64,000 nt of DNA from an uncultured Prevotella sp. GTDB lineage: Bacteria > Bacteroidota > Bacteroidia > Bacteroidales > Bacteroidaceae. The first letter of the stretch is position 1, and every line of letters begins with the position of its first letter. A model generated the notes under the pieces. It worked only from the letters and a program-made list of their open reading frames with translations. It searched no databases and was not told the origin of the DNA. The stretch covers positions 20,023-84,022 of the forward strand of contig CAMVQS010000003.1 of assembly GCA_947169685.1 (NCBI GenBank), read 5' to 3'. Positions 2,035-22,582 of this stretch are shown here, in pieces. Made by a program: the position numbers and the translations under genes.

Positions 2035-2718
2035 TCAAGTAGTAAGCCAGTACGTGCGGAGCAGGTAGAGCAGCAGGAGGTGGAGAGGGTAGAAGGCGTA
2101 GAAGAAGTACTTGCCGAAGGAACCGGTGATGAATCCGCGCTTGCCGTTATACAGCGCCAGCAGGGCGAAGCCCGCTGCCACACCAGGAATATATCGCCTT
2201 GCAATGATGCAAGTACCTAAGAACAACTTCAGCACCTTCTGTTCACGCAGCACGTAGAGCAGCAAGATAAGGCCCACGCCACCTATATTATAATCCACCT
2301 TCAGGACATACGCTGCGAGGAATACCGTTATGAGCGCAAGCGTCTGCCGCATCCAGTTTTCTTTCATATACTCCCAGAGATACAGCGTCAGGAAACCCAA
2401 CAGCAGCGTGAACCCCACGTTGCCGTGCAGCCAGAACTTACTGTTGAGGTGTGCCAATGCCCACGGAGCTTGCGACACAAGGGCAAACACCAGCAGGTTA
2501 CGTCCATATTTCCTGCGGTCATGAGTATGGATGAACCCCTCCACCAGCAAGAAGGCAAACACAGGGAATGCCACACGTCCCACGGTGTGCATCAGCCGGC
2601 ACAGCTCCGGCCATTGGTGAAGCACGGGCAAGTACGATGCCGCATGGTCAATCGCCATTGTCACCATCGCAATGACCTTCAGCCAACTGCCGTTGAGTAT
2701 TTGGTAGTTATTGGACAT
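2035..2718 (-). CDS. TraX family membrane protein (cassette A)
   Basis: MSNNYQILNGSWLKVIAMVTMAIDHAASYLPVLHQW..., TraX motif and multiple TM segments; start moved to internal Met at 2718, which overlaps the upstream gene. Confidence 0.85.
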   Translation of the reverse strand: MSNNYQILNGSWLKVIAMVTMAIDHAASYLPVLHQWPELCRLMHTVGRVAFPVFAFLLVEGFIHTHDRRKYGRNLLVFALVSQAPWALAHLNSKFWLHGNVGFTLLLGFLTLYLWEYMKENWMRQTLALITVFLAAYVLKVDYNIGGVGLILLLYVLREQKVLKLFLGTCIIARRYIPGVAAGFALLALYNGKRGFITGSFGKYFFYAFYPLHLLLLYLLRTYWLTT

Positions 2719-3460
2719 GGGAATCTTTTTTCTTTTTCTCTTTCTTCTTAAACATATTCTTGATGTTATAGAGTATCTTCCCCGTAATAGGGATCTTAAC
2801 CCCTTCCTTCTCAAAGGAACGACAAGGAAGACAATGTCCACAAGGGAATCCCCAGACAGGCTTCAGACACGACCATGTATGCTTTACCACATTTTTGTAT
2901 CCCATAGCATACAGTTCTTCTATTTCCTCCTTCTTCGTTTTATGGTACAACGACTTGGGGAAATAGAAATGTCCGAACAGATTAATAACATCTTGGTCTG
3001 CTCGTGTTTTATCAATCATTAGCACATCGTAATCTGCATCAGGATGTGGAATGAGTAGTGTCTCATCTATTGCTTTGACAATGGTCCCGTTTGGAGAGAA
3101 CTGAAGCCCCATTTCCATCATTAAGTTGTTATGTGCCGCATATTTAGCAAGCCAGTAGTATTGTAGGCTGCTTGTACCTTTTCCAGGAAAAAGGTACATC
3201 CATGAATCAAAGATCTGGTTATTTTTAGCTATATCTTTCTCTTCTATGAGGATAATGTCTGACAATGTTGCACGAGTCTTATTATCTTTTCGCAATAAAT
3301 GGACTATTTTATCCATCGCATGCAGTTCCTGTTGCAAGGATTTCCTTTTTCCTACGATATAATATGGCTGTATGATGCATTCACGACGAGACAGCTCTAC
3401 TATTCGATAGGTGCTGTCTAATCCTCCTGTCCACAATATGTTAATGTGCCTATTCTCCAT
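2708..3460 (-). CDS. PP-loop / 7-cyano-7-deazaguanine synthase (QueC)-like ATPase (cassette A accessory enzyme)
   Basis: 'ILWTGGLDSTYRIVELS' PP-loop; C-terminal 'CLKPVWGFPCGHCLPCRSF' Cys cluster like the QueC zinc site. Confidence 0.7.
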   Translation of the reverse strand: MENRHINILWTGGLDSTYRIVELSRRECIIQPYYIVGKRKSLQQELHAMDKIVHLLRKDNKTRATLSDIILIEEKDIAKNNQIFDSWMYLFPGKGTSSLQYYWLAKYAAHNNLMMEMGLQFSPNGTIVKAIDETLLIPHPDADYDVLMIDKTRADQDVINLFGHFYFPKSLYHKTKKEEIEELYAMGYKNVVKHTWSCLKPVWGFPCGHCLPCRSFEKEGVKIPITGKILYNIKNMFKKKEKKKKDSHVQ

Positions 3461-4772
3461 CTTTATAGACTATGTATTGCTCCAGCATGCCTTCTTCTAT
3501 CTTACGAATATTCTCTCTACGTATGTCTTCATAGCAGACATTGTCTTCTGAACAAATTAAAAGCCTATTACATTGTGGATAATATACGCAGTCTTTACAT
3601 ATTATTTCATCTTTGGGACGTTCTTTGAAACGGTTAATCACCGCTAAATTGTTTTCTTCAGTATTGATATGACCATAGAATTCGCTATCTATGTAGTGCT
3701 CACATTTCCCCAAATATCCATTTGGGGTTATCACAACACTTCTGTCATTATCTGCCATACAGTGATTCACTCTAAATTTCGTAGGAAGTTTCGGTTTGGT
3801 TTTATAATGATAGTTTTTTATAAGTTGTTCTAGCTCCATTCGTTGCTTGTATATTACATTTCGTTCTTCCTGTGTTCGTTTGGTATTTCCTTCTATGTAG
3901 TCAAATAATACATGAGAGTAGATTGTTAAAAAGCTATTCTCGCCAAATCGCTCGTGAAGTTCTCTTACCAGAGTGAACATGTTGTCAATGTTATGCTTAT
4001 CCACATTCAACCGGATAATTACCTTGATTTCGGCAGCAGTTAGTTTTCCAATGTTATCTAACACCTGCTGATAAGCGTTTCCATCCTTATAGATATACCG
4101 CTTACTACGATTATAGATTTCTTCAGTACCATCAAGTGTAATCTGCACTTTTTTTAGTTTCCAAAGTTGCTTGGCACGTTGAATAACATTGTCATCGAAC
4201 AAATAGCCATTACTTACCATAGTGGAAGTCAGTTTAATTCCACTATCCTTCAGTTGCTGGCAAATAATGTCAATAACATGAACATTATATAACGGTTCAC
4301 CCCCAAACCAACGAATATGTATATCATTGTTTTGCTGTCTAACAATGAACTGCGCAACCCGCTTAGCTGTCTCTATGCTCATGTGGATGTGGGCTGCATT
4401 TTTTTCAAAACAGTAAAAACAACGGGCATTACAATCTGAAGTAGGAAGGATAACAAAATTATCCATTCCTGTATTTTTCTTTTCAAAAAGCATTGCCATT
4501 GACTTCACCTGCTTACAAAGTTTTTTGTCATCGTGGTCTTGTGGAACTAAAAACCATAATTCAAATAGTTCATCTAATTCCATGAGGTGCTGAGCCTCTT
4601 CTTTGTTTAGCCATACTAAGCATAGTGTGAGAGTATTATAAATCAACAACCCATCTTCAACATGTTGTTGTATAACATATGTTAACAGACGAAGAGGGAA
4701 TTGGTCTTCTTTTCGTTTTTGCTGTCCAATAATCTTATCTACTATAGTAGTAGGAGGGATAATAATCTGCAT
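3450..4772 (-). CDS. Radical SAM/SPASM peptide maturase (cassette A)
   Basis: CNARCFYCFE (CX3CX2C), 'RWFGGEPLYN', C-terminal CEHY...CKDCVYYPQCNRLLIC SPASM-like cysteines; start chosen as MQIIIPP to match paralog MQIIQPP. Confidence 0.9.
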   Translation of the reverse strand: MQIIIPPTTIVDKIIGQQKRKEDQFPLRLLTYVIQQHVEDGLLIYNTLTLCLVWLNKEEAQHLMELDELFELWFLVPQDHDDKKLCKQVKSMAMLFEKKNTGMDNFVILPTSDCNARCFYCFEKNAAHIHMSIETAKRVAQFIVRQQNNDIHIRWFGGEPLYNVHVIDIICQQLKDSGIKLTSTMVSNGYLFDDNVIQRAKQLWKLKKVQITLDGTEEIYNRSKRYIYKDGNAYQQVLDNIGKLTAAEIKVIIRLNVDKHNIDNMFTLVRELHERFGENSFLTIYSHVLFDYIEGNTKRTQEERNVIYKQRMELEQLIKNYHYKTKPKLPTKFRVNHCMADNDRSVVITPNGYLGKCEHYIDSEFYGHINTEENNLAVINRFKERPKDEIICKDCVYYPQCNRLLICSEDNVCYEDIRRENIRKIEEGMLEQYIVYKDGE

Positions 4773-4773
4773 A

Positions 4774-5805
4774 TTATTCCAAAGCAACTCCACCTAAACC
4801 GACCTCCGAATCGTAAGGAGTAACATAGGCAGAGGGGGTCGTTGTTAAAGCTAATCCAGTAAAGGCTATTCCTCGAACTGTGCCCCTTTCCCAATTACGT
4901 GAATCACTATTATCCAATGTCATTGTCTGTGAATAACAATTACCATTAGAATCCCATACATAAGCTGTTATGGTTTTTCCTCGTAAATCTATAGGGGGAA
5001 CAACTAGATAGGCCGTTAACACATTCTTGGTAGCCAGAGGGGCACTCTTAATTAGTACATATACGAAATTGGTGTTATTCTCTGCTATGAATGGTTGAGA
5101 TTCTGGAGTATGTTTGCCATTCGCATTTTTATGAACATCAAACAAATCAAAGTATCCCTTTTGGGGGAAACCGTTATAATCAATTGCTAATACGACCTTA
5201 CGGTAATCTGCATTAGTTGGAGCATAGCACTGAAATCTTAATATACATGCCATGTTTCTTAGCGAAGCATGGAAAGTTCCATTATCTGCACGTGTGGTGT
5301 CTGTCGCTTCAAAAATATGCTCTCCCAAATGTTCGTGGTTGGTATTAACTGATTGTATTTGAGGTTTGCCGTAATCCCATGGAATCCTATTATAATTTCG
5401 GTTGTAAAAATTAAAAGGCAAGTATGTTGAATACATAATACCATCCTTAGTCATCCATCCTTGCGCTTCAATAAGTACTCCCGATGCTGTTTCCCCTTCT
5501 TTTAATGGTAAAACAAATGGTATTTGATAACCACCGTCGGGGAAAATACCCAAAGTATCCGTATGCTCAAAAAGTATACCAATATTTTGCCCCGTACCAG
5601 TAGTAGTTGCACGGGTTGTAACCAAGGAGTCGTTATTTTGTTCATCTATGGAAGGCTCGAGCTTACTGGAGTCCAAGGGAAGTCTACTGACAATAATGTG
5701 ATCTACACGACTATAACCTGTCCATTCGTCTACATTTGTTGAACACGACACAACAAGACAGATGAACAATTGAGAAACAAAGCAATTTTTAAAATAACGC
5801 CTCAC
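4774..5805 (-). CDS. Fimbrillin-like lipoprotein (cassette A)
   Basis: Lipobox 'LVVSC|S'; 'HTDTLGIFPDGGYQIPF', 'YSTYLPFNFYNRNYNRIPW'; paralogous to 7736-8734; C-term ...DSEVGLGGVALE. Confidence 0.75.
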   Translation of the reverse strand: MRRYFKNCFVSQLFICLVVSCSTNVDEWTGYSRVDHIIVSRLPLDSSKLEPSIDEQNNDSLVTTRATTTGTGQNIGILFEHTDTLGIFPDGGYQIPFVLPLKEGETASGVLIEAQGWMTKDGIMYSTYLPFNFYNRNYNRIPWDYGKPQIQSVNTNHEHLGEHIFEATDTTRADNGTFHASLRNMACILRFQCYAPTNADYRKVVLAIDYNGFPQKGYFDLFDVHKNANGKHTPESQPFIAENNTNFVYVLIKSAPLATKNVLTAYLVVPPIDLRGKTITAYVWDSNGNCYSQTMTLDNSDSRNWERGTVRGIAFTGLALTTTPSAYVTPYDSEVGLGGVALE

Positions 5806-5827: not shown

Positions 5828-5956
5828 TCAAAGACCATCACAGCTATTTGTTGGGCAATCACCGTTACACTCCTCCTGAGAGGCTGAAAGAATTCCAATA
5901 GTCATGTTCAGCTTAATCTCCTCCATCTCGGGAGTTTCATACATCTTCTTTTCCAT
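5828..5956 (-). CDS. Putative RiPP precursor peptide A (42 aa)
   Basis: Read directly from minus strand: MEKKMYETPEMEEIKLNMTIGILSASQEECNGDCPTNSCDGL*; leader MEKKMYETPEMEEIKL identical to precursor B; immediately upstream of the lipoprotein and rSAM genes. Confidence 0.85.
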   Translation of the reverse strand: MEKKMYETPEMEEIKLNMTIGILSASQEECNGDCPTNSCDGL

Positions 5957-6076
5957 ATTACGTTTTTCTTGTTCGTGCTCCCTGTTCCCTTTAAGGAGCG
6001 GTTATCTTTACTGCGGCCGTGGGAACTCCGACCCATCATTTCTTACATACTGCCATCCACCTCGCGGCCCGAGGTG
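5954..6076 (-). promoter_or_regulatory. Conserved structured 5' leader of precursor A
   Basis: Near-identical to 7467-7590 in inverted orientation; includes hairpin CACCTCG-GGCCG-CGAGGTG and GTTCCC...GGGAAC pairing. Confidence 0.7.
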
Positions 6077-6212: not shown

Positions 6213-6251
6213 CCGGAACAGGTCAAGACCTCAAGCGACAACCCTGAAACA

Positions 6252-6418
6252 TCGATGTACACAGCGTTTGAGGTATAGGGGGTGTTGGCATAAGACCCCC
6301 CATACACCTCCCATACACCCCCCATACACTCCATAGATCTGTCAACATGAGGTCTATGGGGGGTGTATGTGAGATCTTACCATAACACCCCCTATACCTC
6401 AAACGCTGTGTACATCGA
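6252..6418. repeat. MITE-like nested inverted repeat (35-bp outer arms, 15-bp inner arms)
   Basis: Outer arms 6252-6286 / 6384-6418 are perfect reverse complements (TCGATGTACACAGCGTTTGAGGTATAGGGGGTGTT); inner arms 6312-6326 / 6355-6369; C-rich 11-bp CATACAC-CCCC tandem repeats within. Confidence 0.9.
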
Positions 6419-6532
6419 CATTTCAGACGGCCATAGGAGTATGTGGGGTGTTTCTCAAAATTCTGATTCACTCCCAGCCCCCTGTGTTTCAATAAACAAT
6501 GCCATGCACCGAGAGAAGTATGTTGAAAAAGT

Positions 6533-6625
6533 GTTTTTTAATTAAATTCTAACCTGGCAAACCATCTTTTTATCACTTTTTCCCGAAATTGTTTGGCGGT
6601 TCAGAAAAGTATTCATAACTTTGCC
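6533..6625 (+). repeat. 93-bp direct repeat, copy 1, containing promoter TTTG(6592-6595)-N20-TAACTTTG(6616-6623)
   Basis: Near-identical to 7361-7453; drives the downstream TA pair. Confidence 0.85.
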
Positions 6626-6651: not shown

Positions 6652-6939
6652 ATGACAGCTTTAGCAAAGAAAATATCAGAAACGCCTATGGCCCCATACA
6701 CAGAACTTTTGCGAAGTATGAAGCCGCAAGAGATACGCATTGTTGTTACCTTTTTGCAAGAGGCATTGCAAGAGGCAGAAGGGGTAAATCCAGAAGCAAA
6801 TGTCTCTGAGATTATCCGCAACAAGTTTAAAGGCCTTACCATCTCGCAGGAGACCAAGGATCTCGTGCGAGACCTTTCGTTGTCTTCAGAAGAAATGGGT
6901 GATGAAAGAACACAATACATTTTAGGGTATAGACAATGA
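6652..6939 (+). CDS. Putative antitoxin of PIN-type TA pair
   Basis: 95 aa small protein overlapping the PIN-domain ORF start by 4 nt; no recognisable domain, assigned by position. Confidence 0.55.
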   Translation: MTALAKKISETPMAPYTELLRSMKPQEIRIVVTFLQEALQEAEGVNPEANVSEIIRNKFKGLTISQETKDLVRDLSLSSEEMGDERTQYILGYRQ

Positions 6940-7349
6940 CAAAGGTTTTTCTTGATACAAACATCTTGATGGACTTTGTTGAAAATCGTGAAAGACGAGA
7001 ATATGCTGAGACCATCATTGAGCTTGGGAAAACAGGTGTAATACAGCTTTATGCCTCATATCTGTCGTATGCCAACATGGGGTATGTCCTACGTCACCGT
7101 AGCCAAGAAGAGCGCTACCGTATGATTAATAATGCTCGTAAAATTGCAACTGTGTTGCCATGTGACTCAGACCAGCTTGACAGCACTTTGGAAAAGCCTG
7201 TGAAAGACTACGAAGACATGCTGCAGTATCAATGCGCGTTGGCAGCAGGATGTGATGTCATAGTAACAAATAACAAACGTGACTTTTTCGAGTTTTGCAA
7301 GTTACCATTTCTTACTTCGGAAGAATTCCTGTTGCAGATTGATTTTTGA
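6936..7349 (+). CDS. PIN-domain toxin (VapC-like)
   Basis: 'KVFLDTNILMDFVENRERR', 'YEDMLQYQCALAAGCDVIVTNNKRDF' PIN acidic motifs. Confidence 0.8.
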   Translation: MTKVFLDTNILMDFVENRERREYAETIIELGKTGVIQLYASYLSYANMGYVLRHRSQEERYRMINNARKIATVLPCDSDQLDSTLEKPVKDYEDMLQYQCALAAGCDVIVTNNKRDFFEFCKLPFLTSEEFLLQIDF

Positions 7350-7360
7350 GCGTATGGCCG

Positions 7361-7453
7361 TTTTTTAATTAAATTCTAACCTGGCAAACCATCTTTTTAT
7401 TACTTTTTCCCGAAATTGTTTGGCTGTTCAGAAAAGTATTTGTACCTTTGCCC
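7361..7453 (+). repeat. 93-bp direct repeat, copy 2, containing promoter TTTG(7420-7423)-N20-TACCTTTG(7444-7451) for cassette B
   Basis: Matches 6533-6625 with a handful of mismatches; Bacteroidota -33/-7 consensus. Confidence 0.85.
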
Positions 7454-7466
7454 TCGAAATGTGTAC

Positions 7467-7590
7467 ACCTCGGGCCGCGAGGTGGATGGCAGTATGTAAA
7501 AAATGATGGGTCGGAGTTCCCACGGCCGCAGTAAAGATAACCGCTCCTCAAAGGGAACAGGGAGCCAGAAAAAAGTATAAACGTAATATG
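7467..7590 (+). promoter_or_regulatory. Conserved structured 5' leader of precursor B
   Basis: Mirror of 5954-6076; hairpin CACCTCGGGCCGCGAGGTG at 7467-7485. Confidence 0.7.
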
Positions 7591-7719
7591 GAAAAGAAGA
7601 TGTATGAGACTCCCGAGATGGAGGAGATTAAGCTGAAGATGGAAAAGAGCCTGATGGGATGTGTTGAAGTTGGTACGACTTCTGATGTGGATTGTGATGA
7701 ATTTTGTGAAGAAGACTAA
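7588..7719 (+). CDS. Putative RiPP precursor peptide B (43 aa)
   Basis: MEKKMYETPEMEEIKLKMEKSLMGCVEVGTTSDVDCDEFCEED*; leader identical to precursor A, divergent Cys-containing core; absent from supplied ORF track. Confidence 0.85.
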   Translation: MEKKMYETPEMEEIKLKMEKSLMGCVEVGTTSDVDCDEFCEED

Positions 7720-7735
7720 TGATTCATTCTGTTGA

Positions 7736-8734
7736 ATGAGATTGTCGTTGACGGTATTGAGACCTATTTCCTTGTGTCTGTTTTGCGTTATGTTTGTCAT
7801 AGCGTGTAACAGTCAAGAGGATTCATACACTTTGGTGAAAGAGATTAAATTGACCATTGAAGACATGGAAATAGGTGAACTAGATGATTCTATTTCTGCA
7901 AACGAAATTATTACTCGTTCAATCTTAGAAAATGACGGATCAAAAGTTTCATATCTTTTTGAAGATCATGACACCATCGGTATTTTTCCCGAGGGAGGTT
8001 TTGAGATCCCTTTTATAGTTGAAATACCAGATTTAGTGCCAACAAAAGAGGTTACTCTTATTGCGAATGGTTGGCGTACTAAGGATGGAGTGAAGTATTG
8101 CTCATATCTGCCTTTTGACCGATACAACTTTGACTACTCTAATCGTGTTCCATGGAGATTTGCAGGAATAAGACAAAATGGAAACAAAGACGGAGTAAAA
8201 ACAGGTTCTAAGAATTCTCTATTCTTGGCAACACGCCCTACGGAAACGACTCCAGAAGGGCTCTTTAATGCGGCTTTTACACATATGGGGACTATTGTAC
8301 GCGCTAATTACAAACTTGCAACTGTAGGGACCTTTAAAAAGGCATGCATTGTAGCGCCAACGGCTCGATTTGCCTTAAATGGCACTTATGATCTTTATGC
8401 AGACGGACAACCTTTTACACCAGGAGAAATGAGTAATCATTTCGACGTCATGCTGGATAACTTAACAACAACTGCAAGTTCCACCAACGTTTATGTTTAT
8501 TATATTCTATCACCAGATATCAGCAATGCTAGCGGTGACCAGTTGATAGGCTACATATGGGATGACAACGGCATACGATACAGAGGGGTTTATACGTTTT
8601 CCAAAGCTACAGTATGGAAGCGGAATGGCTTTGCCACCATTAGTTTTACAATGGAACGAGAATCAAACAACCTTGATGTTTATCAAAATGAATTCAGTAC
8701 GGAATCGGAATTTAACGGTGTCGCTATAGAATAA
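7736..8734 (+). CDS. Fimbrillin-like lipoprotein (cassette B)
   Basis: Lipobox 'FVIAC|N'; 'EDHDTIGIFPEGGFEIPF', 'YCSYLPFDRYNFDYSNRVPW' shared with cassette A paralog; C-term ...STESEFNGVAIE. Confidence 0.75.
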   Translation: MRLSLTVLRPISLCLFCVMFVIACNSQEDSYTLVKEIKLTIEDMEIGELDDSISANEIITRSILENDGSKVSYLFEDHDTIGIFPEGGFEIPFIVEIPDLVPTKEVTLIANGWRTKDGVKYCSYLPFDRYNFDYSNRVPWRFAGIRQNGNKDGVKTGSKNSLFLATRPTETTPEGLFNAAFTHMGTIVRANYKLATVGTFKKACIVAPTARFALNGTYDLYADGQPFTPGEMSNHFDVMLDNLTTTASSTNVYVYYILSPDISNASGDQLIGYIWDDNGIRYRGVYTFSKATVWKRNGFATISFTMERESNNLDVYQNEFSTESEFNGVAIE

Positions 8735-8747
8735 TAGAATTTTCTCT

Positions 8748-10067
8748 ATGCAAATTATTCAACCCCCATCTCCACTAATAGATGGTTTACTGAAATCTCA
8801 GAAATATCATATAGGAACAGAATACCGATTGATAACGTATGCTATAAAGCTACTGGTACCAGAAGGCGTTTTGCTTTACAATTTACTGACCAAATGCATT
8901 GTATTATGCCAACAAGAAGACTTGAAGGCAGCTTCAGCGGATAATCCGCTCATACAATATTGGTTTTTAGTTCCAGAAAAACACGATGACCAGCGACTCT
9001 GTGAACAGATAAGAAGTGCTCTACAACTGATTCAAAAAAAAGAGAATTTCATTTCTGGGTATTGTATATTTACGACTACTGTTTGTAATGCACGTTGTTT
9101 CTATTGTTTTGAACGTGGTAGCAAGGAACGGACGATGAATGATGAAATAGCTGCAAAGGTGGTTGACTATATCGCACAGAATGCATGTGGCCATCAAGTG
9201 CGCTTTCGCTGGTTTGGTGGAGAACCTCTCTACAACATGCAGGCTATTGATAATATATGCGATGGACTTAAGAGACGAGGTGTTGATTATGTTTCTAAGA
9301 TGGTTAGCAATGGATATTTGTTTAATGAAAACGTAATCAAAAGAGCTGCGACATTATGGAAGTTGGATAAAATCCAGATAACCCTTGACGGAACAGAAGA
9401 AAAATACAATCGTATTAAAAACTATAAGGATAATAGAGAGAGTGCCTATCTGCGAGTAATGAAAAATATCGGCTTGCTGTTGGAATATGGTATCCGGGTC
9501 GTTATTCGCCTGAACATTGATGCCATCAACATTGAGGATATGACTTGTCTGGTTCATGAGCTACATACTCGCTATGGTGGAAATAAATTGCTTTCAGTTT
9601 ATTCACGTACTTTGTTTGAAAATAAAGGATGTGTTCGCAAAAGAAGCAATGAGGAGCGAGCACTTCTTTGTAATCAGCAAATAGAATTGGAAAAACTTAT
9701 TTACGGATACAATTTGAATGAAGCCCCATCAAATTTACGAAAAGTTTGGGTGAATGCCTGCATGGCAGACACCTCGCATACTATCACAATATTACCAGAC
9801 GGAAAACTGGGAAAGTGTAATGATTATTTGGAGAGTCACTTTGTCGGAACGCTCGACGAGGGAATCACAGACGAAAAGATGGTGCAAGCATTTACGCTTC
9901 AACGGGAGCCATTAGCCGATTGTAGGTCTTGTGCTCTTCAACCAGATTGCCTTAGATTACAGCTATGCATGGAAAAAGAACACTGCTACGTTGAAGAAAG
10001 AAGAATCAAGGTGTTTCGTATTCAGCAAATGATGTTGAAAACATTTGAGAAAAACAAGGCAGTATGA
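8748..10067 (+). CDS. Radical SAM/SPASM peptide maturase (cassette B)
   Basis: CNARCFYCFE, 'RWFGGEPLYN', 'MVSNGYLFNENVIKRA', SPASM cysteines CNDY...CRSCALQPDCLRLQLC. Confidence 0.9.
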   Translation: MQIIQPPSPLIDGLLKSQKYHIGTEYRLITYAIKLLVPEGVLLYNLLTKCIVLCQQEDLKAASADNPLIQYWFLVPEKHDDQRLCEQIRSALQLIQKKENFISGYCIFTTTVCNARCFYCFERGSKERTMNDEIAAKVVDYIAQNACGHQVRFRWFGGEPLYNMQAIDNICDGLKRRGVDYVSKMVSNGYLFNENVIKRAATLWKLDKIQITLDGTEEKYNRIKNYKDNRESAYLRVMKNIGLLLEYGIRVVIRLNIDAINIEDMTCLVHELHTRYGGNKLLSVYSRTLFENKGCVRKRSNEERALLCNQQIELEKLIYGYNLNEAPSNLRKVWVNACMADTSHTITILPDGKLGKCNDYLESHFVGTLDEGITDEKMVQAFTLQREPLADCRSCALQPDCLRLQLCMEKEHCYVEERRIKVFRIQQMMLKTFEKNKAV

Positions 10068-10933
10068 GAACAATTCTTTCATACAGAATAGCAGGAATAG
10101 ATTTTGCAATAAATATAGAAAAAGAGGCTATTGAACAAAATCTGCTAAATCACTACAACTCTTTTAGAATAGAAGGAACAAAAGAATTTGATTTTGTACT
10201 GGACATCGTCAACCGACAGGAAAGAATGGAAGGTGAACAGATTCTTGGCGGTGACAAGATAAGAAGCCAGATATATCGGGTACAGAACGGTTACTATAAG
10301 GAGGCGTTAGGCAGAGAGAGGAGAAGAGTGTTGTATGCAATATATTTAAATAGCAATTATAGCTATGGAAGGTTGAAAATAAATCAGCATACTCGTACTA
10401 TATTGAACGAAGCCATTATGACCATGTTTTTTGCTGCAATGGCCAAATTCCACGTAATAAAAATTCATGCATCGTCTGTCATTAAGGATGGCAAAGCCAT
10501 TCTCTTTCATGCGCCATGTGGTACAGGTAAGAGTACGCATAGTCAGCAATGGATGAAGGCATTTCCTGATGCGGAACTGTTGAATGATGATGGACCCGTA
10601 GTACGCGTATGGCCTGACGGAAGGGTGATTGCATACGGCAGTCCTTGGAGTGGGAAAACTCCTTGCTACAAAAACCTATCGGCACCTGTAGCTGCATTTG
10701 TACGTATCAACAGGGCTAAAGAAAACAAGATTCATCGCCTAAGACTTGTGGAGGCATATGCATCATTACTTCCTTCCTGTACTGGAGTAAAGTGGAATGA
10801 TGATATACGCAATTATACACATGAAACCATGCAAAAGGTAATATCAACCGTTCCCTTTTATCAATTGGACTGCCTACCCAACGAGGACGCTGCAAGGGTA
10901 TGTGCAGCGGAAGTATTGAAACTACATGAATAG
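10064..10933 (+). CDS. HPr kinase/phosphorylase-like (HprK-like) ATPase (cassette B accessory enzyme)
   Basis: 'IKIHASSVIKDGKAILFHAPCGTGKSTHSQQW' Walker A, 'LLNDDGPVVRVW', 'AYGSPWSGK'; start overlaps rSAM stop. Confidence 0.75.
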   Translation: MRTILSYRIAGIDFAINIEKEAIEQNLLNHYNSFRIEGTKEFDFVLDIVNRQERMEGEQILGGDKIRSQIYRVQNGYYKEALGRERRRVLYAIYLNSNYSYGRLKINQHTRTILNEAIMTMFFAAMAKFHVIKIHASSVIKDGKAILFHAPCGTGKSTHSQQWMKAFPDAELLNDDGPVVRVWPDGRVIAYGSPWSGKTPCYKNLSAPVAAFVRINRAKENKIHRLRLVEAYASLLPSCTGVKWNDDIRNYTHETMQKVISTVPFYQLDCLPNEDAARVCAAEVLKLHE

Positions 10934-11612
10934 CAATAACTACCAAATACTGAGTGGAAGCTGGCTGAAGGTCATCGCGATGGTGACGATGGCGATTGAC
11001 CATACGGCATCGTACCTGCCTGTGCTTCACCAATGGCCGGAACTGTGTTGGCTGATGCACACTGTGGGACGTGTGGCATTCCCCGTGTTTGCCTTCTTGC
11101 TGGTGGAGGGATTTGTCCATACCCATGATCGCAGGAAGTACGGACGGAACCTACTGGTACTTGCCTTGGTGTCACAGACTCCGTGGGCATTGGCACACCT
11201 CAACAGTAAGTTCTGGCTGCACGGCAACGTGGGGTTCACGCTGCTGTTGGGTTTCCTGACGCTGTATCTCTGGGAGTATATGAAAGAAAACTGGATGCGG
11301 CAGACGCTTGCGCTCATAACGGTATTCCTCGCAGCGTATGTCCTGAAGGTGGATTATAATATAGGTGGCGTGGGCCTTATCTTGCTGCTCTACGTGCTGC
11401 GTGAACAGAAGGTGCTGAAGTTGTTCTTAGGTACTTGCATCATTGCAAGGCGATATATTCCTGGTGTGGCAGCGGGCTTCGCCCTGCTGGCGCTGTACAA
11501 TGGCAAGCGCGGATTCATCACAGGTTCCTTCGGCAAGTATCTTTTCTACGCCTTCTACCCTCTCCACCTCCTGCTGCTCTACCTGCTCCGCACATACTGG
11601 CTTACCACTTGA
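10926..11612 (+). CDS. TraX family membrane protein (cassette B)
   Basis: Nearly identical to the cassette A TraX (about 8 differences over ~228 aa by eye). Confidence 0.85.
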   Translation: MNSNNYQILSGSWLKVIAMVTMAIDHTASYLPVLHQWPELCWLMHTVGRVAFPVFAFLLVEGFVHTHDRRKYGRNLLVLALVSQTPWALAHLNSKFWLHGNVGFTLLLGFLTLYLWEYMKENWMRQTLALITVFLAAYVLKVDYNIGGVGLILLLYVLREQKVLKLFLGTCIIARRYIPGVAAGFALLALYNGKRGFITGSFGKYLFYAFYPLHLLLLYLLRTYWLTT

Positions 11613-11616
11613 TGCG
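11591..11616 (+). repeat. 26-bp direct repeat CACATACTGGCTTACCACTTGATGCG, copy 1 (left of hipBA)
   Basis: Identical to 13339-13364. Confidence 0.9.
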
Positions 11617-11664
11617 GAGGAAACACGGCCAACTATCGCATCAAAACACGGCCAACTGTCATAA

Positions 11665-12918
11665 TCAGGACTTCACTCGGCTGTCTAATCGTTGGGCGAA
11701 TCGGTTTTGTTCTGATGGGGATATTTTGAGTTCATTGGCAACTTTCCTCCAATCCCTGACTGCCGTTTTTGTCTTCTCTATGATTCTTGCTGCTGTGTCT
11801 GGAGAAAGGAAATAGTCTTTACAGGCATCTTGCAACTTCTCGAGACTTGCTTCATTCGAGTTGTTATTGATGAGCAGGCTTTGATTGTTACTGTCAGTCG
11901 GGTTAAGGTCATAGGCTGGGGATAATGTCCAACCTTTCTTCGTCAAGAGAAATCCGTGGTTTCGGAAATGATCGTCACTATTGCCCACACAAATGTTAAA
12001 TACCACACGTCGAAATAGCTCTTCAAGATTGTCATCGACATTGACACAATTGGAAAGAATAAAATCTACAATATCCAAATAGCCATGTCCTGTTTCGAAG
12101 TTGTCTCCGTCCTTTAAGCCTGTCATAGTCATGGCAGAAGCAAAATGGATCCGACGGCATGCTTCTGTTCTATCGAATCGTCTTGAGAGCAGTGCATGAT
12201 ATCTACCAACCGGCAGTATTGCCGTTTCTGCTGCGTTTATGGATGCAGACTTTGCCAAGACATGACAGAAATGCTCCCATAGAGCTACATCATACAGGTC
12301 ATTACGTGAAGGAAACTTTGCAATCCACAAACCTCCGTTTTCGTCGGTTACATTGGCTTTCGGTCGAGCACCGCCCAAAGATGTGCCTGGGCGTTCTAAT
12401 TGCCTGATCCATTTCTTTTCAGGCAATTCATTAGCCTCCTCGCTCTTCTCATATTCCTGAGCTATTGCTGTCAGCTCTTTTACTGAGGTTAATGGCGGTA
12501 CAGACAATCTATTATCCGAATTGACAAATTCTCCATTAGGATCCTTCTTAAATCGAAGGCCTCCCATACGGGTGTAATCATCAATACCTTTTAGGTAGTC
12601 AAAAGAGTAAAGTGACCTTACTGCTCTCTTTTCCTCTGCTGCCTCAACCTGCTCTTTCCTGTCCAGCAAACGACGTCCCCATCTGTCAGGAAGTGTATCA
12701 GAGATACAGCCAAAAACATGTTCCTCTTGAGAATACTGGAAGCCTGCATAATTGCCGATTTCATCACTCAAGACAATGGCACTATGATTCTTCAACCATT
12801 CTTTTTCAAAACAGAAACCGTAAGTACCATTACCACGCAGACGTTCATACGTCAGACAGCCAACCAACTCGGGGTTGTCTAGCCAGTCGAAATCGGCATA
12901 CACATAGAGTTTTTCCAT
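11665..12918 (-). CDS. hipA: HipA-family type II toxin-antitoxin kinase
   Basis: 'LGGARPKANVTDENGGLWIAKFPSRND', 'ALLSRRFDR', 'NICVGNSDDHFRNHGFLL' HipA motifs. Confidence 0.92.
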   Translation of the reverse strand: MEKLYVYADFDWLDNPELVGCLTYERLRGNGTYGFCFEKEWLKNHSAIVLSDEIGNYAGFQYSQEEHVFGCISDTLPDRWGRRLLDRKEQVEAAEEKRAVRSLYSFDYLKGIDDYTRMGGLRFKKDPNGEFVNSDNRLSVPPLTSVKELTAIAQEYEKSEEANELPEKKWIRQLERPGTSLGGARPKANVTDENGGLWIAKFPSRNDLYDVALWEHFCHVLAKSASINAAETAILPVGRYHALLSRRFDRTEACRRIHFASAMTMTGLKDGDNFETGHGYLDIVDFILSNCVNVDDNLEELFRRVVFNICVGNSDDHFRNHGFLLTKKGWTLSPAYDLNPTDSNNQSLLINNNSNEASLEKLQDACKDYFLSPDTAARIIEKTKTAVRDWRKVANELKISPSEQNRFAQRLDSRVKS

Positions 12919-12921
12919 AGC

Positions 12922-13242
12922 TTAATCTTTTTTCGAGGCTCGTTCACGATGTTTCAACTCCAAGTCTTGAAGTGTTCTCCCGAGAGGATCGTCCTTGGCC
13001 AGCGATAAGATATCGTCATCTAACTGCAAAGCATAGAGAATACGCAGATAAATACCTATAGCGACGGTAGGCATACCTTTCTCCACACGCATCACGGTCA
13101 GCTCAGAGCACGTGGCCCTTTCTGCAATTTGGGCAACACTAAGATTACGACGCAGACGAGCCAGACGTATCTGTTCGCCGACAATCTGCATCTTTTGCTC
13201 CAATCTCCTTGGTAATTTCGTACTACGTGTTGCCTTTGTCAT
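12922..13242 (-). CDS. hipB: HipB-like HTH antitoxin/autorepressor
   Basis: XRE-type HTH 'IRLARLRRNLSVAQIAERATCSELTVMRVEKG' directly upstream of hipA. Confidence 0.88.
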   Translation of the reverse strand: MTKATRSTKLPRRLEQKMQIVGEQIRLARLRRNLSVAQIAERATCSELTVMRVEKGMPTVAIGIYLRILYALQLDDDILSLAKDDPLGRTLQDLELKHRERASKKD

Positions 13243-16138: not shown

Positions 16139-17125
16139 TTAGTTATCATTGGGGTTAGTAGGTTCCATGAGGCCCGTGTCACCATCGTAAGTGGTAGTGG
16201 TACCGCCTGATTCCCAATCGGCATAGAGCACCTGACTACTCAGTCGTAGCGACTGCTCGTCGAGCAAGAGCGACACCTCGGTACACAGTCCTGAACGTAG
16301 CTGGATATTGTCGAGGGAGTATTTCACGGGCTTACCATCGATGGTCAAGCGGATAGTGAGGGTGCCAGGCGATGCCGTAGGCAACACGAGCCACTCCGTG
16401 TATGCATAGTGGGTGCCGAAGGCCTCGGTCAGTTCCTCGTCAATAACGGAAGAGAGGCCATTGGTGCCTGTCGTGACGATTTCTCCCGTCTGAGCATTGT
16501 AATGTCCCGATGTGGCGTAGCAAGTGCCTTCGATGGCTGCTGCCGTCCACTGCGGCTTGTGTGTAACGGCCTCGTTGTAGGCTGTGGAGAACTTAACGTT
16601 TGTCTGCACACGAATCTTCGCCTTGATATGCTGCAGGATGAAACGCACATTGGGTCGTGCCTTGCTGATGTTGGTCTTCCACGAGGTATAGAGGTTGTCT
16701 ATGTCTGTACCATCGTTGGGGCAAGTCAGCGGAATATTGGTAACATCGAATGAGGGACTGCCGTCATAGGGGAAATAGGCCATGGCCTGCCACGGCTGGT
16801 CAGTCAGCACAAGTCGGCTTGGGGCTATCCATTTCTGAGCTGTCATCTCGCCAGAGGACGTATAGACCACGTTGTTCTGCTTGATGTCAGCGGTATTGCC
16901 CTGTCCGGTGACAAAGACTCCCACCTGTGTCCCACTATCAAAGTAGCCTCCTGGCAACACCTGACCAGCGCGTGTCTCGTCGTCAATGCCCACTGTTGCA
17001 CTGATGGTCATCTCTACCTGTTCGGCATCAGAGTTGCTTGTGCAGGCAGCTGTCATCGTCATCAGTGCGATGACGATTGCAATTGACAATTGACAATTGA
17101 TAATTGATAATTGATATTTTTTCAC
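16139..17125 (-). CDS. Fimbrillin family lipoprotein (GTG start as given in ORF track)
   Basis: Lipobox 'MTAAC|T', 'AMAYFPYDGSPSFDVTNIPLTC', 'LQHIKAKIRV'; start codon reads GTG. Confidence 0.7.
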   Translation of the reverse strand: MKKYQLSIINCQLSIAIVIALMTMTAACTSNSDAEQVEMTISATVGIDDETRAGQVLPGGYFDSGTQVGVFVTGQGNTADIKQNNVVYTSSGEMTAQKWIAPSRLVLTDQPWQAMAYFPYDGSPSFDVTNIPLTCPNDGTDIDNLYTSWKTNISKARPNVRFILQHIKAKIRVQTNVKFSTAYNEAVTHKPQWTAAAIEGTCYATSGHYNAQTGEIVTTGTNGLSSVIDEELTEAFGTHYAYTEWLVLPTASPGTLTIRLTIDGKPVKYSLDNIQLRSGLCTEVSLLLDEQSLRLSSQVLYADWESGGTTTTYDGDTGLMEPTNPNDN

Positions 17126-17161
17126 TTTTAACTCTTAACTCTAAATTCTAAACTATGTCCT

Positions 17162-18130
17162 CTATTCGAGGATTACCTGTTCCTTATCGTCGTCAATGAA
17201 GTCACGGATAGTAACCGACTCCACCGTCATGCGGTTCTGCGAGAGCTTCAGGTTAAAGGTGTAATACTTGTTGCTCTCGAAAGCACCGGCATAGGTGTAT
17301 TTGACAGAGAACTCTATGCCATCGACAGTAGCGTAGAACGTCAGCTGTTTGTTGGCGGCATTGCGTAGCGGGATAAATAGCATCTCGCCCAACTCGGCAC
17401 TGGTGTTCAGGCCCTGCGTCTTCTCAACATTGATAGCCTTCTGTATGAGATTACCCACGGCAACATCCGACAGCTCGTTAGTCAGGCTGTTGAGGGTAGC
17501 CGAAGTGCCGATGGCCTCACCTTTCATGGCCATGTGGGTGATGTAGATGTACTGTCCCGACTGGTGGCGGCTGTAGTCGCCCGTGTTCAGATTCAGCATG
17601 ATTTTCGAAGCGATGCGCTGCATGTAAAGATAGACGCCTGTACCTGATCCGCTGCCCATGTTACCACGACGAATGGGGTCGCCATTATATTCGGGGTTGG
17701 GGTGCATGGTGGTCTGCCAGGGCACACACTTCCAGTCAATGGCGGTAGTAACGGGGATGGCAGCAGGGTCAATGCCCTCGGTATAGGGATGATAGGCCGA
17801 CACGGCAGCATCGTAGTCGATGAGGGCAATACCTCTCGACGATGTCCAGTGATAGTAGTTGTTGGAGCTATCATAGGTATAGGGCACGTTTCGGTCCTGA
17901 TAGAAACGATGATTACCGTCGGCATCTTGCGTGCTGACACCAATGGTAGCACCATTACCGAAACCATAGTAGGCGCGTGTTATCGGCTCGGTGCTGATGG
18001 AAGCATCCATCTCCACACTGGCAATGCGCAGCATCTCCACAGCATTGCCGTCCTGTTCGTCGTTGGAGCAGGCGGTAAATGCCATGAATGCCATAAGCAC
18101 AAGTCCTATCTTTATTCTACGTTTCATCAT
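17162..18130 (-). CDS. Fimbrillin family lipoprotein
   Basis: Lipobox 'MAFTAC|S', 'VSAYHPYTEGIDPAAIPV'. Confidence 0.75.
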   Translation of the reverse strand: MMKRRIKIGLVLMAFMAFTACSNDEQDGNAVEMLRIASVEMDASISTEPITRAYYGFGNGATIGVSTQDADGNHRFYQDRNVPYTYDSSNNYYHWTSSRGIALIDYDAAVSAYHPYTEGIDPAAIPVTTAIDWKCVPWQTTMHPNPEYNGDPIRRGNMGSGSGTGVYLYMQRIASKIMLNLNTGDYSRHQSGQYIYITHMAMKGEAIGTSATLNSLTNELSDVAVGNLIQKAINVEKTQGLNTSAELGEMLFIPLRNAANKQLTFYATVDGIEFSVKYTYAGAFESNKYYTFNLKLSQNRMTVESVTIRDFIDDDKEQVILE

Positions 18131-18151
18131 TTTCTACATGTCACTAATTAG

Positions 18152-19129
18152 TTAGTTATTGATGGGTGTAGTGTCCTTACCAGTCTGGTTTGTTGTCGTC
18201 CATGGGGTGATGGTCACGTTTTGCACGACCAGCTCGGTGGTGATGTTTTCCACCTTAATGAGCACGGGGATATTCACCTTATAACCGGAGCGTACCACCA
18301 CATTGGGAACGGTGGCGGTGAGATAACTGTCGCGAATCTTGGCCGAGATGGTGATGGTGATGGGACTGGTGGTATAGGGAATCACCATCCATGTCAGCGA
18401 CTGTGGTCCATTGGTCGTCGTCGGATTATAACGTGGCGACTTCTTGCCGAAGGTCTCTGCCCTCTCCACCTCCGAGAACACTCCCGTAGTAGAGTTGAAG
18501 GTGGCATTCAGTCCCATGTCGCCATCAATGGTGACATACGAGAGATAACCATAATCATCCCTGTCACATGTCAGCTGTAGGCAGATGAGTGCATAGGCAT
18601 GTCGCATCTCCAGGTTTGCCGTGCGGTTGGCGTAGCTGACATAGGGCTTGTTGACACCATCGTAGTCGCTGAAGGGTGCATATAGCCAATCGGTCTGTGA
18701 CTGACCTGTTCCCGGGGTGTAGGATATGGGAATAGCGCGTGGGTCGAGTCCGTAACTGTAAGGATAGTAGGCCGACACCTTGGCTGGTGCATAGGTCAGG
18801 ATATCGACGTTAGGTGCATCGGTGTAGGAAGAACCCGTTTGTGGAATATAAGTTGCAGATCCCTCAGACCATTTTGAGTTGTAATAGCGATAGAAGAGTC
18901 CCCAATGATTATAGACATCGGTAGAGCCGTCTGCTCCGATGAGGCTAATGCCTATCCGATCATTGTCCTCAAAGGATGACTTTAAAGCCCGGGTAGCCTC
19001 GTCGCCGGTCATGTAGGCATTGACCTGCAAAGGTGCACGTGGCTCATCTGTCGGCTCCTGTTCGCTAGAGCAGGCAGCAAACGTCAGCATCAGAAGGCTG
19101 TATATATATATAAGGTATCGTCTCATCAT
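18152..19129 (-). CDS. Fimbrillin family lipoprotein
   Basis: Lipobox 'LTFAAC|S', 'VSAYYPYSYGLDPRAIPI', 'EMRHAYALICLQL'. Confidence 0.75.
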   Translation of the reverse strand: MMRRYLIYIYSLLMLTFAACSSEQEPTDEPRAPLQVNAYMTGDEATRALKSSFEDNDRIGISLIGADGSTDVYNHWGLFYRYYNSKWSEGSATYIPQTGSSYTDAPNVDILTYAPAKVSAYYPYSYGLDPRAIPISYTPGTGQSQTDWLYAPFSDYDGVNKPYVSYANRTANLEMRHAYALICLQLTCDRDDYGYLSYVTIDGDMGLNATFNSTTGVFSEVERAETFGKKSPRYNPTTTNGPQSLTWMVIPYTTSPITITISAKIRDSYLTATVPNVVVRSGYKVNIPVLIKVENITTELVVQNVTITPWTTTNQTGKDTTPINN

Positions 19130-20076
19130 CAGTCGTCTGTATCTGGTTCTACATCGTAATATTCGTTGTTGTTATGATCATAGTTATGCCTATACACATC
19201 CCACTCTTTCACCATGACGCTGCTAACGGTGAGTACGCGACCGTCGCCCAACTCAAGCGGAAACTCATAGATACGTCCCTGACTGAACGGACGATTACTG
19301 ACAGTGGCCGTGTAGTTCTTATCGTCAATAGTCAGCGTGATGATGAGATAGCTATTGTCTGTTCCTGTAGGCAAGACGTAGAAGTCGAGTGTCGTGGGAT
19401 TGTTGACATCCTGCGACACACTGACGCTCAGTCCCTCGGCTCGCAGAATATCTGTAGCCGTTGTCGAGAAGGTATATTTACCTGTGAGGGTGTTCAGCGT
19501 ACCTGCCTTGCGGATTGCCTCGCCTGAAAGTTCCACAGCACTGATAGTGGCAGCTCCTATGCTACTGAAAATGGAGAGCCTAAAGATGCTCATGGCATGC
19601 TTCAGGGCTATGGTAGCCTTCGGCCGGTAGTTGTTGACGGTATTATCCTCATCGTAGGCTACATAGAGTAAATCGAAGTTTTCCGTACAATCCATGGAAA
19701 TGGCTGTGGGGTCGGTCGTGGAGTTGTAGGGATAGTAGGCTGACACCATAGCTGGGGTATCGTTGAGCCAGATGTCGGTACCCTGCCAAACGGTACCGTT
19801 AAGCGTATAAGGGGTATTCACCGTTGTATAGACAGTGCCGACAGCATCGCTGACACTGAGTCCCACAGCGTCACCTTCAGCAAAGGCCGTAGGATTATTA
19901 ATCACCGCCTGTGTCATCTGGTAAGTAGCACGTGTGGCGGATGTACCGATGTTGACCTCCAGACCGAGACGTGCCCTACCCTCGTCTGTCACTCCATTGT
20001 CGGAGGCACAGGCGACAAGCCCCAAAAGTGCTGAGATTCCAAGATATATCTGTACGTAATACTTCATAACCTTCAA
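19129..20076 (-). CDS. Fimbrillin family lipoprotein
   Basis: 'LGLVAC|A', 'VSAYYPYNSTTDPTAISMDC', 'ALKHAMSIFRLSI'. Confidence 0.75.
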   Translation of the reverse strand: MKVMKYYVQIYLGISALLGLVACASDNGVTDEGRARLGLEVNIGTSATRATYQMTQAVINNPTAFAEGDAVGLSVSDAVGTVYTTVNTPYTLNGTVWQGTDIWLNDTPAMVSAYYPYNSTTDPTAISMDCTENFDLLYVAYDEDNTVNNYRPKATIALKHAMSIFRLSIFSSIGAATISAVELSGEAIRKAGTLNTLTGKYTFSTTATDILRAEGLSVSVSQDVNNPTTLDFYVLPTGTDNSYLIITLTIDDKNYTATVSNRPFSQGRIYEFPLELGDGRVLTVSSVMVKEWDVYRHNYDHNNNEYYDVEPDTDD

Positions 20077-20077
20077 C

Positions 20078-21694
20078 TTATTCTACTGTCCTTACTGCTC
20101 TGACAGGCAGCGGCACATGACAACCCATGGTGTTACCTCCAGCATCCTTAACGACATAAGCCTTCCCGTTTTCACCATAGAGATACCAGCAGTAGGCAAA
20201 TCCTGCAACTTCATCACTCGTGGGGGTGCTCGTCCATAGCACGGAAATATCCCTATCATCATACATGGGGATGAACAGCCGTTTCGAAGTGTCAGCCTTT
20301 CTGATGATGAGAATACCCTTAGCCGTCCCATACTCAGGATAACTGGTATTTAGGGTGCCGTTAAATAGCACATAACTATATTTGGTGGTGTTGGCCAACT
20401 GCTTATATTCATCATAGGTCGGCAGTCGCCAGCCCATCCAGTCCTCGTTGTCTTCCGTTAGTCCGACCACAGGGTCGTACTGTGGATTGCCACTAATGTC
20501 TATCTTGAGACTATTGAGCGCTGTCGCAGCGTAGGCATCGCGGTAGGTCTCACTCTGAGATAAGGCTTCGGAGGCTGTCACACCTGTGACTGGTGTCTGA
20601 CTGGCCCACTGGTAGAGGTTGCCTATTTCTGTAGCGTCAGTGGTTCCGATGTTATACGGTGCAAAGAGCACCTTTCTACCGTTGGAATCTGTCACATTCA
20701 TGTCAATACCCGGTATGCTGGAAGTGAAACCTGTCTCCTCGAGCGAAAGTTGCGACACCTCACTGATGGTGACAGGACTACCCCACGGGGTAATGGTGAT
20801 ACTCTGCATAATGAGCAACTGGTCAGTGAGCACGAAATGGAAATGATAGACATGTCCCATCTGCAGCGTTAAGGCAGAAGTACTGATAGCATACTCTGCA
20901 CCATCAATGGTCATGCGAATGCCGATGGCACTACTGGTGCCGGTAGTCAACACATAATAATACAGGTCGGTGGCACTGCCTGCTGCAGCTATCTGCGGCT
21001 CATTGCCTGCGTTATAGTTTACCGTGAAGGTGTTGGCATCGGTATTGTCGAAGGTAAAGGCAGCTGGCGTGACCAGCGTGTTCATAGTACCCGAGGTACG
21101 GAAACCATCACTGGTAAGTGTGGTGGAATTGATCTTTCCTGTTCCACTGTAGGCGGGTTTTCCGCTTGCTGCCTCTCGTGAGAGGGAGATGCGAATGCCC
21201 GTCTGGGCATGATACATGGCAATGGGAGTGAACGGCTTGGTGGTATTCACCACATTGGCTCCTTGACCGTACATCCAGTCGGTGGTGGCCGTGAAATCGG
21301 CATTATTGGTACAGGTAACAGGGATGGCCGCAGGGTCAACCCCTTCGGTATAGGGATAATAAGCCATAGCCGTCAAAGAGTTTTCAGACAAAGGGATGCC
21401 CTGATTATCGGGTACTCGCCACTTCTGGGTATTGCCTGTACCGTAACTGGTAAACGGACGGTTAGAGGCATTGACAGACTGGTCACCGTTGAGTGCCGTG
21501 ACACCGATGGTCTCACCGTTGCCAAAGGCTGTCGCCATGCTTGGCTCGTTGCTACGTGTCTGCTGGGGCGAGATGTCGGCTGTAATACCCAGTATGACGG
21601 GGCCGTCGGGTGTCAGTGACTGTTCACTGGCACAGGCGGCAAGCAGCAATAGCATAGCGGCTGTCAGCAGGGGATATGTAATGTTTCGTCTCAT
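20078..21694 (-). CDS. Fimbrillin family lipoprotein with C-terminal FISUMP-like domain
   Basis: 'LLAAC|A', 'AMAYYPYTEGVDPAAIPVTC'; C-term 'VLFAPYNIGTTDATEIGNLYQWAS...WMGWRLPTYDEYKQL'. Confidence 0.75.
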   Translation of the reverse strand: MRRNITYPLLTAAMLLLLAACASEQSLTPDGPVILGITADISPQQTRSNEPSMATAFGNGETIGVTALNGDQSVNASNRPFTSYGTGNTQKWRVPDNQGIPLSENSLTAMAYYPYTEGVDPAAIPVTCTNNADFTATTDWMYGQGANVVNTTKPFTPIAMYHAQTGIRISLSREAASGKPAYSGTGKINSTTLTSDGFRTSGTMNTLVTPAAFTFDNTDANTFTVNYNAGNEPQIAAAGSATDLYYYVLTTGTSSAIGIRMTIDGAEYAISTSALTLQMGHVYHFHFVLTDQLLIMQSITITPWGSPVTISEVSQLSLEETGFTSSIPGIDMNVTDSNGRKVLFAPYNIGTTDATEIGNLYQWASQTPVTGVTASEALSQSETYRDAYAATALNSLKIDISGNPQYDPVVGLTEDNEDWMGWRLPTYDEYKQLANTTKYSYVLFNGTLNTSYPEYGTAKGILIIRKADTSKRLFIPMYDDRDISVLWTSTPTSDEVAGFAYCWYLYGENGKAYVVKDAGGNTMGCHVPLPVRAVRTVE

Positions 21695-21697
21695 CGG

Positions 21698-22582
21698 CTA
21701 TGTAGGGTCTTGAATGATGAATTCCTGTTTGTCAGAGTCGTGGGTGACATCCCAGGGTACGATGGTGACACGGCGAATGGCCAGCCAGCCATTGTTGACC
21801 ACCACCTCGAAGGTATAACGCTTACCCTGTTCGAACTGAATGGCAGGGGCTGTACCCATGATGGTTCTGCCATCGAGACTGAGTGTCACCGTCAGTGAGG
21901 CTTCTTCGCCTGTGGTCAGCACATAGAACTGGTCACTAAAGGACGTTGTTCGGACATTGGCATCGGTATAGGCCTGCGTGATATTTGCTGTATTGACGGA
22001 GCTAAGCACGCCATTGATGGCATTGAGCGTTCCGCCAAGACCGAAAGCATCACTCTCGACAGTAAGCTCTGTCAGATCACCGATATCCGTATAAGCAGAA
22101 GAGTTAATTTCTATTGCAATGACGGTCTGGGCATGATGCATCTCGAAAGAAGCAGTATGACTTTTGCGGTGGACGGTGTTCGACCAGGTGGAATACATCC
22201 AGTCGGTCTCTGTATCGCAGGTAATGGCAATGGCAGCTGGATTGGTGTTTGCCCGATAGGGATAGTAGGCCACACCTCGCGTATTGGTGTCACCCACACG
22301 GAGCTGGATGGCTCCAGTGGCTGGGCTCCAACTTGTTCCGTCGGTGGTATAGGCCACATTCTGGAAGGGCGCATAGTTAGAGGCTGTCTGTTCCAATGAG
22401 ATGCCAATGGTCTTGCCAGCATCGAAGGAAGTTGCGTCATAGGTTGCTGCAGCACGGGTGTTGATGCCCACGCTGACCTGTAGTTCTTCGTCGGAAGACG
22501 TGGCTGTCAGCGACTCGCTGTTGCAAGCCGTCAACAGCAGGACTGCTGCTGTCAGGACCCCTATGTAATACTTACTCTTCAT
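21698..22582 (-). CDS. Fimbrillin family lipoprotein
   Basis: 'LLLTAC|N', 'GVAYYPYRANTNPAAIAITC', 'EMHHAQTVIAIEI', 'FEQGKRYTFEVVV'. Confidence 0.75.
   Translation of the reverse strand: MKSKYYIGVLTAAVLLLTACNSESLTATSSDEELQVSVGINTRAAATYDATSFDAGKTIGISLEQTASNYAPFQNVAYTTDGTSWSPATGAIQLRVGDTNTRGVAYYPYRANTNPAAIAITCDTETDWMYSTWSNTVHRKSHTASFEMHHAQTVIAIEINSSAYTDIGDLTELTVESDAFGLGGTLNAINGVLSSVNTANITQAYTDANVRTTSFSDQFYVLTTGEEASLTVTLSLDGRTIMGTAPAIQFEQGKRYTFEVVVNNGWLAIRRVTIVPWDVTHDSDKQEFIIQDPT

Follow-up and report, generated by a model that had tools for sequence, protein, structure and literature searches.

A short Cys-containing peptide with a constant leader and a divergent core is a probable radical SAM RiPP precursor in an uncultured Prevotella

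The window analysed here, a stretch of 64,000 nucleotides from the genome of an uncultured Prevotella, encodes a 43-residue Cys-containing peptide upstream of a radical SAM/SPASM (rSAM) gene, which raises the question of whether the peptide is made to be modified and, if so, by what. The answer that we consider probable is that this peptide (precursor B) is a RiPP precursor, the leader of which is bound by an RRE and the Cys-rich core of which is modified by its rSAM/SPASM enzyme. The features by which a RiPP is recognised, namely a short precursor that is made up of a conserved leader and a variable core and is encoded together with an enzyme for its modification, are all found at this locus; the ORFs, the contrast between leader and core, the gene linkage and the mosaic structure are established by direct observation.

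Two modules with one leader and unrelated cores

Precursor B is encoded at 7588–7719 (+ strand), from ATG to TAA, and consists of the leader MEKKMYETPEMEEIKL followed by an acidic Cys core with the spacing CX10CX3C; its translation is exactly the 43-residue peptide quoted in the initial annotation, which also gave the spacing of the cysteines correctly. Precursor A, encoded at 5828–5956 on the − strand (translation MEKKMYETPEMEEIKLNMTIGILSASQEECNGDCPTNSCDGL), has the same leader and another core, CX3CX4C; the CX3C element said to be common to both cores is indeed present in it, as CNGDC. The two leaders are the same at 16/16 residues, with one synonymous and no non-synonymous difference over their 48 nt. 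In the cores, which are unrelated, 13 of 14 codons compared without gaps are changed, every change being non-synonymous. Within the 64-kb window, the strict leader pattern matches these two ORFs only.

Each precursor opens a module, read on its own strand in the order precursor, lipoprotein, radical SAM/SPASM maturase, HprK-like kinase (module B) or QueC-family protein (module A), and TraX-family protein, with the final two genes overlapping in both modules. For module B (+ strand), a lipobox-bearing, fimbrillin-like lipoprotein (7736–8734; assigned by sequence inspection) is followed by the maturase (8748–10067), the HprK-like kinase (10064–10933) and the TraX-family protein (10926–11612). 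The corresponding genes of module A (− strand) lie at 4774–5805 (lipoprotein, also lipobox-bearing and fimbrillin-like by inspection), 3450–4772 (maturase), 2708–3460 (QueC-family protein) and 2035–2718 (TraX-family protein; PF05857, 2.9e-38). No Pfam or NCBIfam family scores over its cut-off for the lipoproteins of either module, and a lipoprotein structure model was unusable (mean pLDDT 36).

Comparison of the modules by blastn confines near-identical DNA to their two ends. At one end, the 5′ UTR and leader arm of module B (7466–7641, +) is an inverted copy of the module A arm (6076–5903, −), with 93.75% identity over 176 nt, the match stopping 6 nt past the shared 16-codon leader. At the other, the TraX gene (94% DNA identity between the copies) and downstream sequence match at 93.7% (2713–1989 and 10934–11660). 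The interiors share just short islands of 66–70% identity, and at the protein level the radical SAM enzymes are 42% and the lipoproteins 28% identical. Since near-identical ends enclose strongly diverged genes, the modules have the appearance of cassettes swapped behind a constant leader, in which a constant 5′ UTR and leader at one end and a constant TraX gene at the other would frame a core and enzymes that are exchanged. Both ends are similarly diverged, which points to a single duplication after which one copy had its interior replaced. The shared UTR element occurs twice in the source genome and was detected in none of the other genomes among 297. The possibility that the shared 5′ UTR forms a structured RNA was considered and set aside; there is no Rfam match there, and the folding z-scores are just −1.1 and −1.7.

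Between the modules, a promoter-like 93-nt repeat lies ahead of module B (7360–7452, +), with a Bacteroidetes-type −7 motif TACCTTTG at 7443, and a 95% copy of it lies at 6533–6625 ahead of a PIN module; these direct repeats flank a probable antitoxin and PIN-domain protein pair (6652–7349; PF13470). The promoter is itself flanked by the inverted arms at 5903–6076 and 7466–7641, an arrangement that could form an invertible switch, with recombination at the arms flipping the promoter segment and modules A and B being expressed alternately. It would fit such a switch that upstream of A the minus strand shows no Bacteroidetes-type motif, although the motif search there might have missed some other type of promoter. 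Active switching should, however, hold the arms near-identical via gene conversion, and they are approximately 94% identical; moreover, no recombinase was recognised adjoining the arms and a single orientation is seen in one assembly, such that we regard a switch as quite improbable. The same segment contains a long palindrome (6244–6426; 76-nt inverted repeat, 86%). Rfam microRNA matches at 6285–6383, which fall under the gathering score and reflect this palindrome, were rejected.

Leader and core across related loci

An rSAM homologue was found in 20 of 399 genomes of the same genus, the source genome included, and three further homologues on contigs of an uncultured Prevotella, a rumen Bacteroidales and a Bacteroidaceae bacterium. 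Scanning of 23 homologous rSAM loci (310 kb) with the strict leader pattern gave 21 small ORFs at 20 of the 23 loci, all of them 2.1 kb or less from the rSAM start. Fourteen of the 21 precede the rSAM gene on its own strand by less than 310 nt, one of these overlapping it by 22 nt; four are convergent with it at about 1.8–2.1 kb, one is on the opposite strand 191 nt away, and two, about 1.7 kb upstream, are members of a sister system described below. Reversed sequence, used as a control, yielded one match in 374 kb. As the pattern is rare in this control and specific both in the window and at rSAM loci, the leader of precursor B is not a chance resemblance.

In pairwise blastn between loci, homology to the precursor repeatedly runs from about −30 to +50/80 nt, is lost in the core and is regained at the rSAM gene; some close pairs of loci align throughout from precursor to rSAM. 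Two independent sets from other genomes were aligned without gaps, anchored on the leader proline. Codon identity was 54% in the leader and 5% in the core for set G1 (nine sequences), and 69% and 11%, respectively, for set G2 (seven sequences), the core values being lowered by differences in core length under ungapped anchoring. The window pair, the two sets and the breaks within the core thus bear out the constant leader and divergent core that the initial annotation had proposed; the equal rates of leader and core evolution that it had set against its own proposal were not seen, given leader values of 54% and 69% beside these core values.

The leader consensus is K[YF]xxPxM...[KE]L. At least two core Cys residues are present in 23 of 25 rSAM-linked precursors, and CX3C was observed 16 times in the rSAM-linked cores against 7.3 expected (1/2000 shuffles), an enrichment that is inflated by kinship. 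A small-x-Ser site is found approximately 14–17 residues past the leader proline in 22/25 rSAM-linked precursors and in all 16 of the other leader peptides inspected; precursor A has SAS at this site, and precursor B is exceptional (LMGC), without a clear site. At one locus (L054:9611–9840, −), two tandem precursors with identical leaders were observed, one with a short, Cys-free core.

A profile of the precursor leader matches 131 of 200 same-genus genomes (E ≤ 0.01), with up to 15 matches per genome; many of these are weak, have few Cys and lie beside other genes, including those for large secreted-type proteins. Small peptides of the form [YF]xxPxM...AxS are widespread in genomes of the genus (for example L082–L098), often without rSAM or Cys.

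The breadth of this distribution favours a reading in which the precursors are RiPP-like and unmodified, being bound by PqqD, cleaved and exported, whilst the rSAM enzyme acts elsewhere, for example on the neighbouring lipoprotein. Many inspected matches indeed lack an rSAM gene within 1.5 kb and have cores with few Cys or none, and in the window the lipoprotein gene stands between precursor and rSAM. At related loci, however, no intervening lipoprotein gene is seen; the recurrence of a leader ORF beside rSAM (20/23 loci) and the Cys-rich nature of the rSAM-linked cores (23/25) also argue against an enzyme with another target, and we hold this reading to be unlikely. A chance or decaying ORF, that is, a fragment of duplicated UTR that is open by accident, might be invoked on the grounds that the ORF is short and that the UTR and leader form a duplicated segment. 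This is extremely improbable in light of the retention of the leader at the protein level across species (93 synonymous against 58 non-synonymous in one set), the mostly non-synonymous changes in the core, and the linkage to rSAM.

The maturase, its companions and a proposed route to the product

The module B maturase (PF04055) has the CX3CX2C motif (C113/C117/C120) and SPASM-type C-terminal cysteines, with C338, C357, C392, C395, C401, C407 and C413 completing its invariant cysteines; the module A enzyme also belongs to PF04055. An AlphaFold model of the rSAM enzyme, built from five sequences (mean pLDDT 69), comprises in its N-terminal domain (pLDDT about 50–80) a strand-rich region and then helices at approximately residues 26–95. 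The best fold match is the thioether-forming CteB (5why/5wgg), with matches also to TigE, anSME, SuiB and SkfB, and CteB (5wgg) is the top match in the sequence-profile search of solved sequences as well. CteB, SuiB and SkfB carry an RRE. On the basis of the modelled N-terminus and its closest fold relative, the earlier impression that the rSAM proteins lack an RRE is likely wrong, and the enzyme probably carries an N-terminal RRE-like domain. A comparison of this N-terminus with PqqD by hhalign found no sequence similarity.

The leader of precursor B would be recognised by an RRE, either this N-terminal domain or a separate PqqD protein whose gene lies at another place in the genome. PqqD (PF05402) adjoins rSAM at many related loci, and the source genome encodes two copies, one flanked by an HprK-like gene and an ABC transporter (contig C95), the other a stand-alone gene adjoining fimbrillin-like lipoproteins (contig C22; L067:141–413); a candidate recognition element is therefore to hand, and its binding to the leader is predicted. 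PqqD is present in 173 of 200 same-genus genomes, with most inspected copies in a locus of HprK/S24/ABC type. The dependence between PqqD and leader at the genome level is not clear-cut, several leader-positive genomes, many incomplete, having no PqqD match. A recurrent locus with HprK-like, S24, PqqD and ABC-exporter genes (L066 on G000:C95, and L099–L127) was mostly observed without a recognised adjoining precursor.

The clearest view of the machinery is given by the sister system, which combines a second rSAM family with a precursor, PqqD, an S24-like peptidase and an HprK-like protein. Its seven precursors have leaders like MKTEKMTYEKPTVQKVEFDFKTRIAAS, almost invariant, and short, hypervariable cores that mostly contain two Cys; it lends support to reading the window modules in the same way.

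We infer the later steps as follows, with leader binding, cross-link chemistry, cleavage, export and product function all predicted. The rSAM enzyme would modify the acidic Cys-rich core, most likely by forming radical thioether cross-links between Cys and nearby residues; that the core is probably thioether-cross-linked is proposed from distant similarity of the enzyme to CteB and, weakly, to PapB. The HprK-like kinase (P-loop PCGTGKST; TIGR04352 at 7.5e-6, below the curated cut-off), which clusters with HprK-like proteins from related loci, and the TraX-family membrane protein may contribute further tailoring. An S24/SipW-like peptidase and an ABC exporter, found in relatives, would likely remove the leader and export the product, with cleavage expected near the conserved small-x-Ser, about 16 residues past the leader proline.

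Several observations weigh against the RiPP reading. In the window a lipoprotein gene separates the precursor from rSAM, whereas relatives usually have a gap of less than 310 nt, and modules A and B contain no PqqD, peptidase or exporter. The model of the rSAM N-terminus is of moderate confidence and without an hhalign match to PqqD, and none of the curated RiPP models in the libraries used reaches its cut-off for the enzyme or the precursors.

Known systems and the QueC-family protein

The probable RiPP precursor resembles those of ranthipeptide/SCIFF systems (PapA–PapB, CteA–CteB), where, too, a Cys-rich core preceded by a leader is the substrate of an rSAM/SPASM maturase; CteB is the top structural and profile match of the enzyme. 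PapB forms cross-links from Cys to Asp or Glu and is flexible as to their spacing (PMC9413430), and these target residues are abundant in core B. The B enzyme nonetheless scores 77.3 bits against the PapB model NF047865 (cut-off 340) and 53.3 bits against the SCIFF model TIGR03974 (cut-off 425), below both, and the precursors here differ in having another leader and no repeated CX3D motif. The best NCBIfam match of both window enzymes is the radical SAM/SPASM RiPP maturase model TIGR04463 ('vs_C_rich'), at 130.3 and 139.5 bits; as the curated cut-off is 525 bits, they are not members of that family.

Lasso systems have PqqD/B1, HPr-kinase-like enzymes and an ABC exporter, ruminal lasso clusters being known to include HPr kinase as an accessory (PMC7533575), and the PqqD proteins of the relatives match lasso PqqD models best, below cut-offs. 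Here an rSAM enzyme is encoded instead; no lasso cyclase (Asn-synthetase-like) or B2 transglutaminase-like protease was recognised among the annotated neighbours, which are a subset of all neighbours. The GG-motif RiPP clusters of Bacteroidales, which are rSAM-based and from the same order as this locus, have GG leaders and C39 peptidase-containing transporters (PMC10352776), in contrast to the [YF]xxP leader without GG found here and the S24-like peptidase and ABC exporter of the relatives. The kind of RiPP is a known one; what sets this variant apart is its leader, its companions and its cassette structure.

The result is a sequence-defined radical-SAM RiPP family of Prevotella-like bacteria from gut and rumen, the leader type of which ([YF]xxPxM...AxS) is missed by the standard models used. 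Because this leader is a searchable handle and its type is widespread in the genus, many peptides of abundant gut bacteria may be overlooked. The natural mosaic of leader and core also allows one to ask directly whether a single recognition element can serve unrelated cores.

In the QueC-family protein of module A, a PP-loop (TGGLDST) is accompanied by a CX8CX2CX2C motif, and the match to PF06508 (1.7e-4; 21.6 bits) falls just short of the cut-off of 22. Its closest homologue (61% identity; genome G018, L050:8119–9102) is fused to PqqD and lies beside rSAM, and another homologue (L135:5578–6357) is encoded immediately downstream of a [YF]xxPxM leader peptide (MKKNDYQSPEMEVVELKSQCALLAGSEIGGGG...), with an HprK-like gene and an ABC exporter nearby. 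Homologues at 33–39% identity, which were given no weight as evidence, occupy unrelated loci; by eye, several of these contain genes of surface-polysaccharide type. Anti-phage systems include QueC-family proteins that modify the N-termini of proteins, and those of type IV CBASS attach a 7-deazaguanine base to a protein N-terminus (PMC13279940). The PqqD fusion, the leader adjacency and the CBASS chemistry together raise the tentative and rather doubtful idea that the module A protein is a RiPP tailoring enzyme, and that the module A product may carry a nucleobase or another ATP-activated group. No precedent for nucleobase-type addition to RiPPs was found in the open literature searched, and the words RiPP, PqqD and radical SAM are all absent from a 2026 review of the QueC family (PMC13329287). 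With the QueC–PqqD fusion, a specific new peptide chemistry becomes testable.

Past module B, ORFs resembling HipA and an HTH partner were noted by eye at 11665–13242. Fimbrillin-like lipoproteins form a tandem run at 16139–23999, and a similar run lies beside the stand-alone PqqD gene on contig C22.
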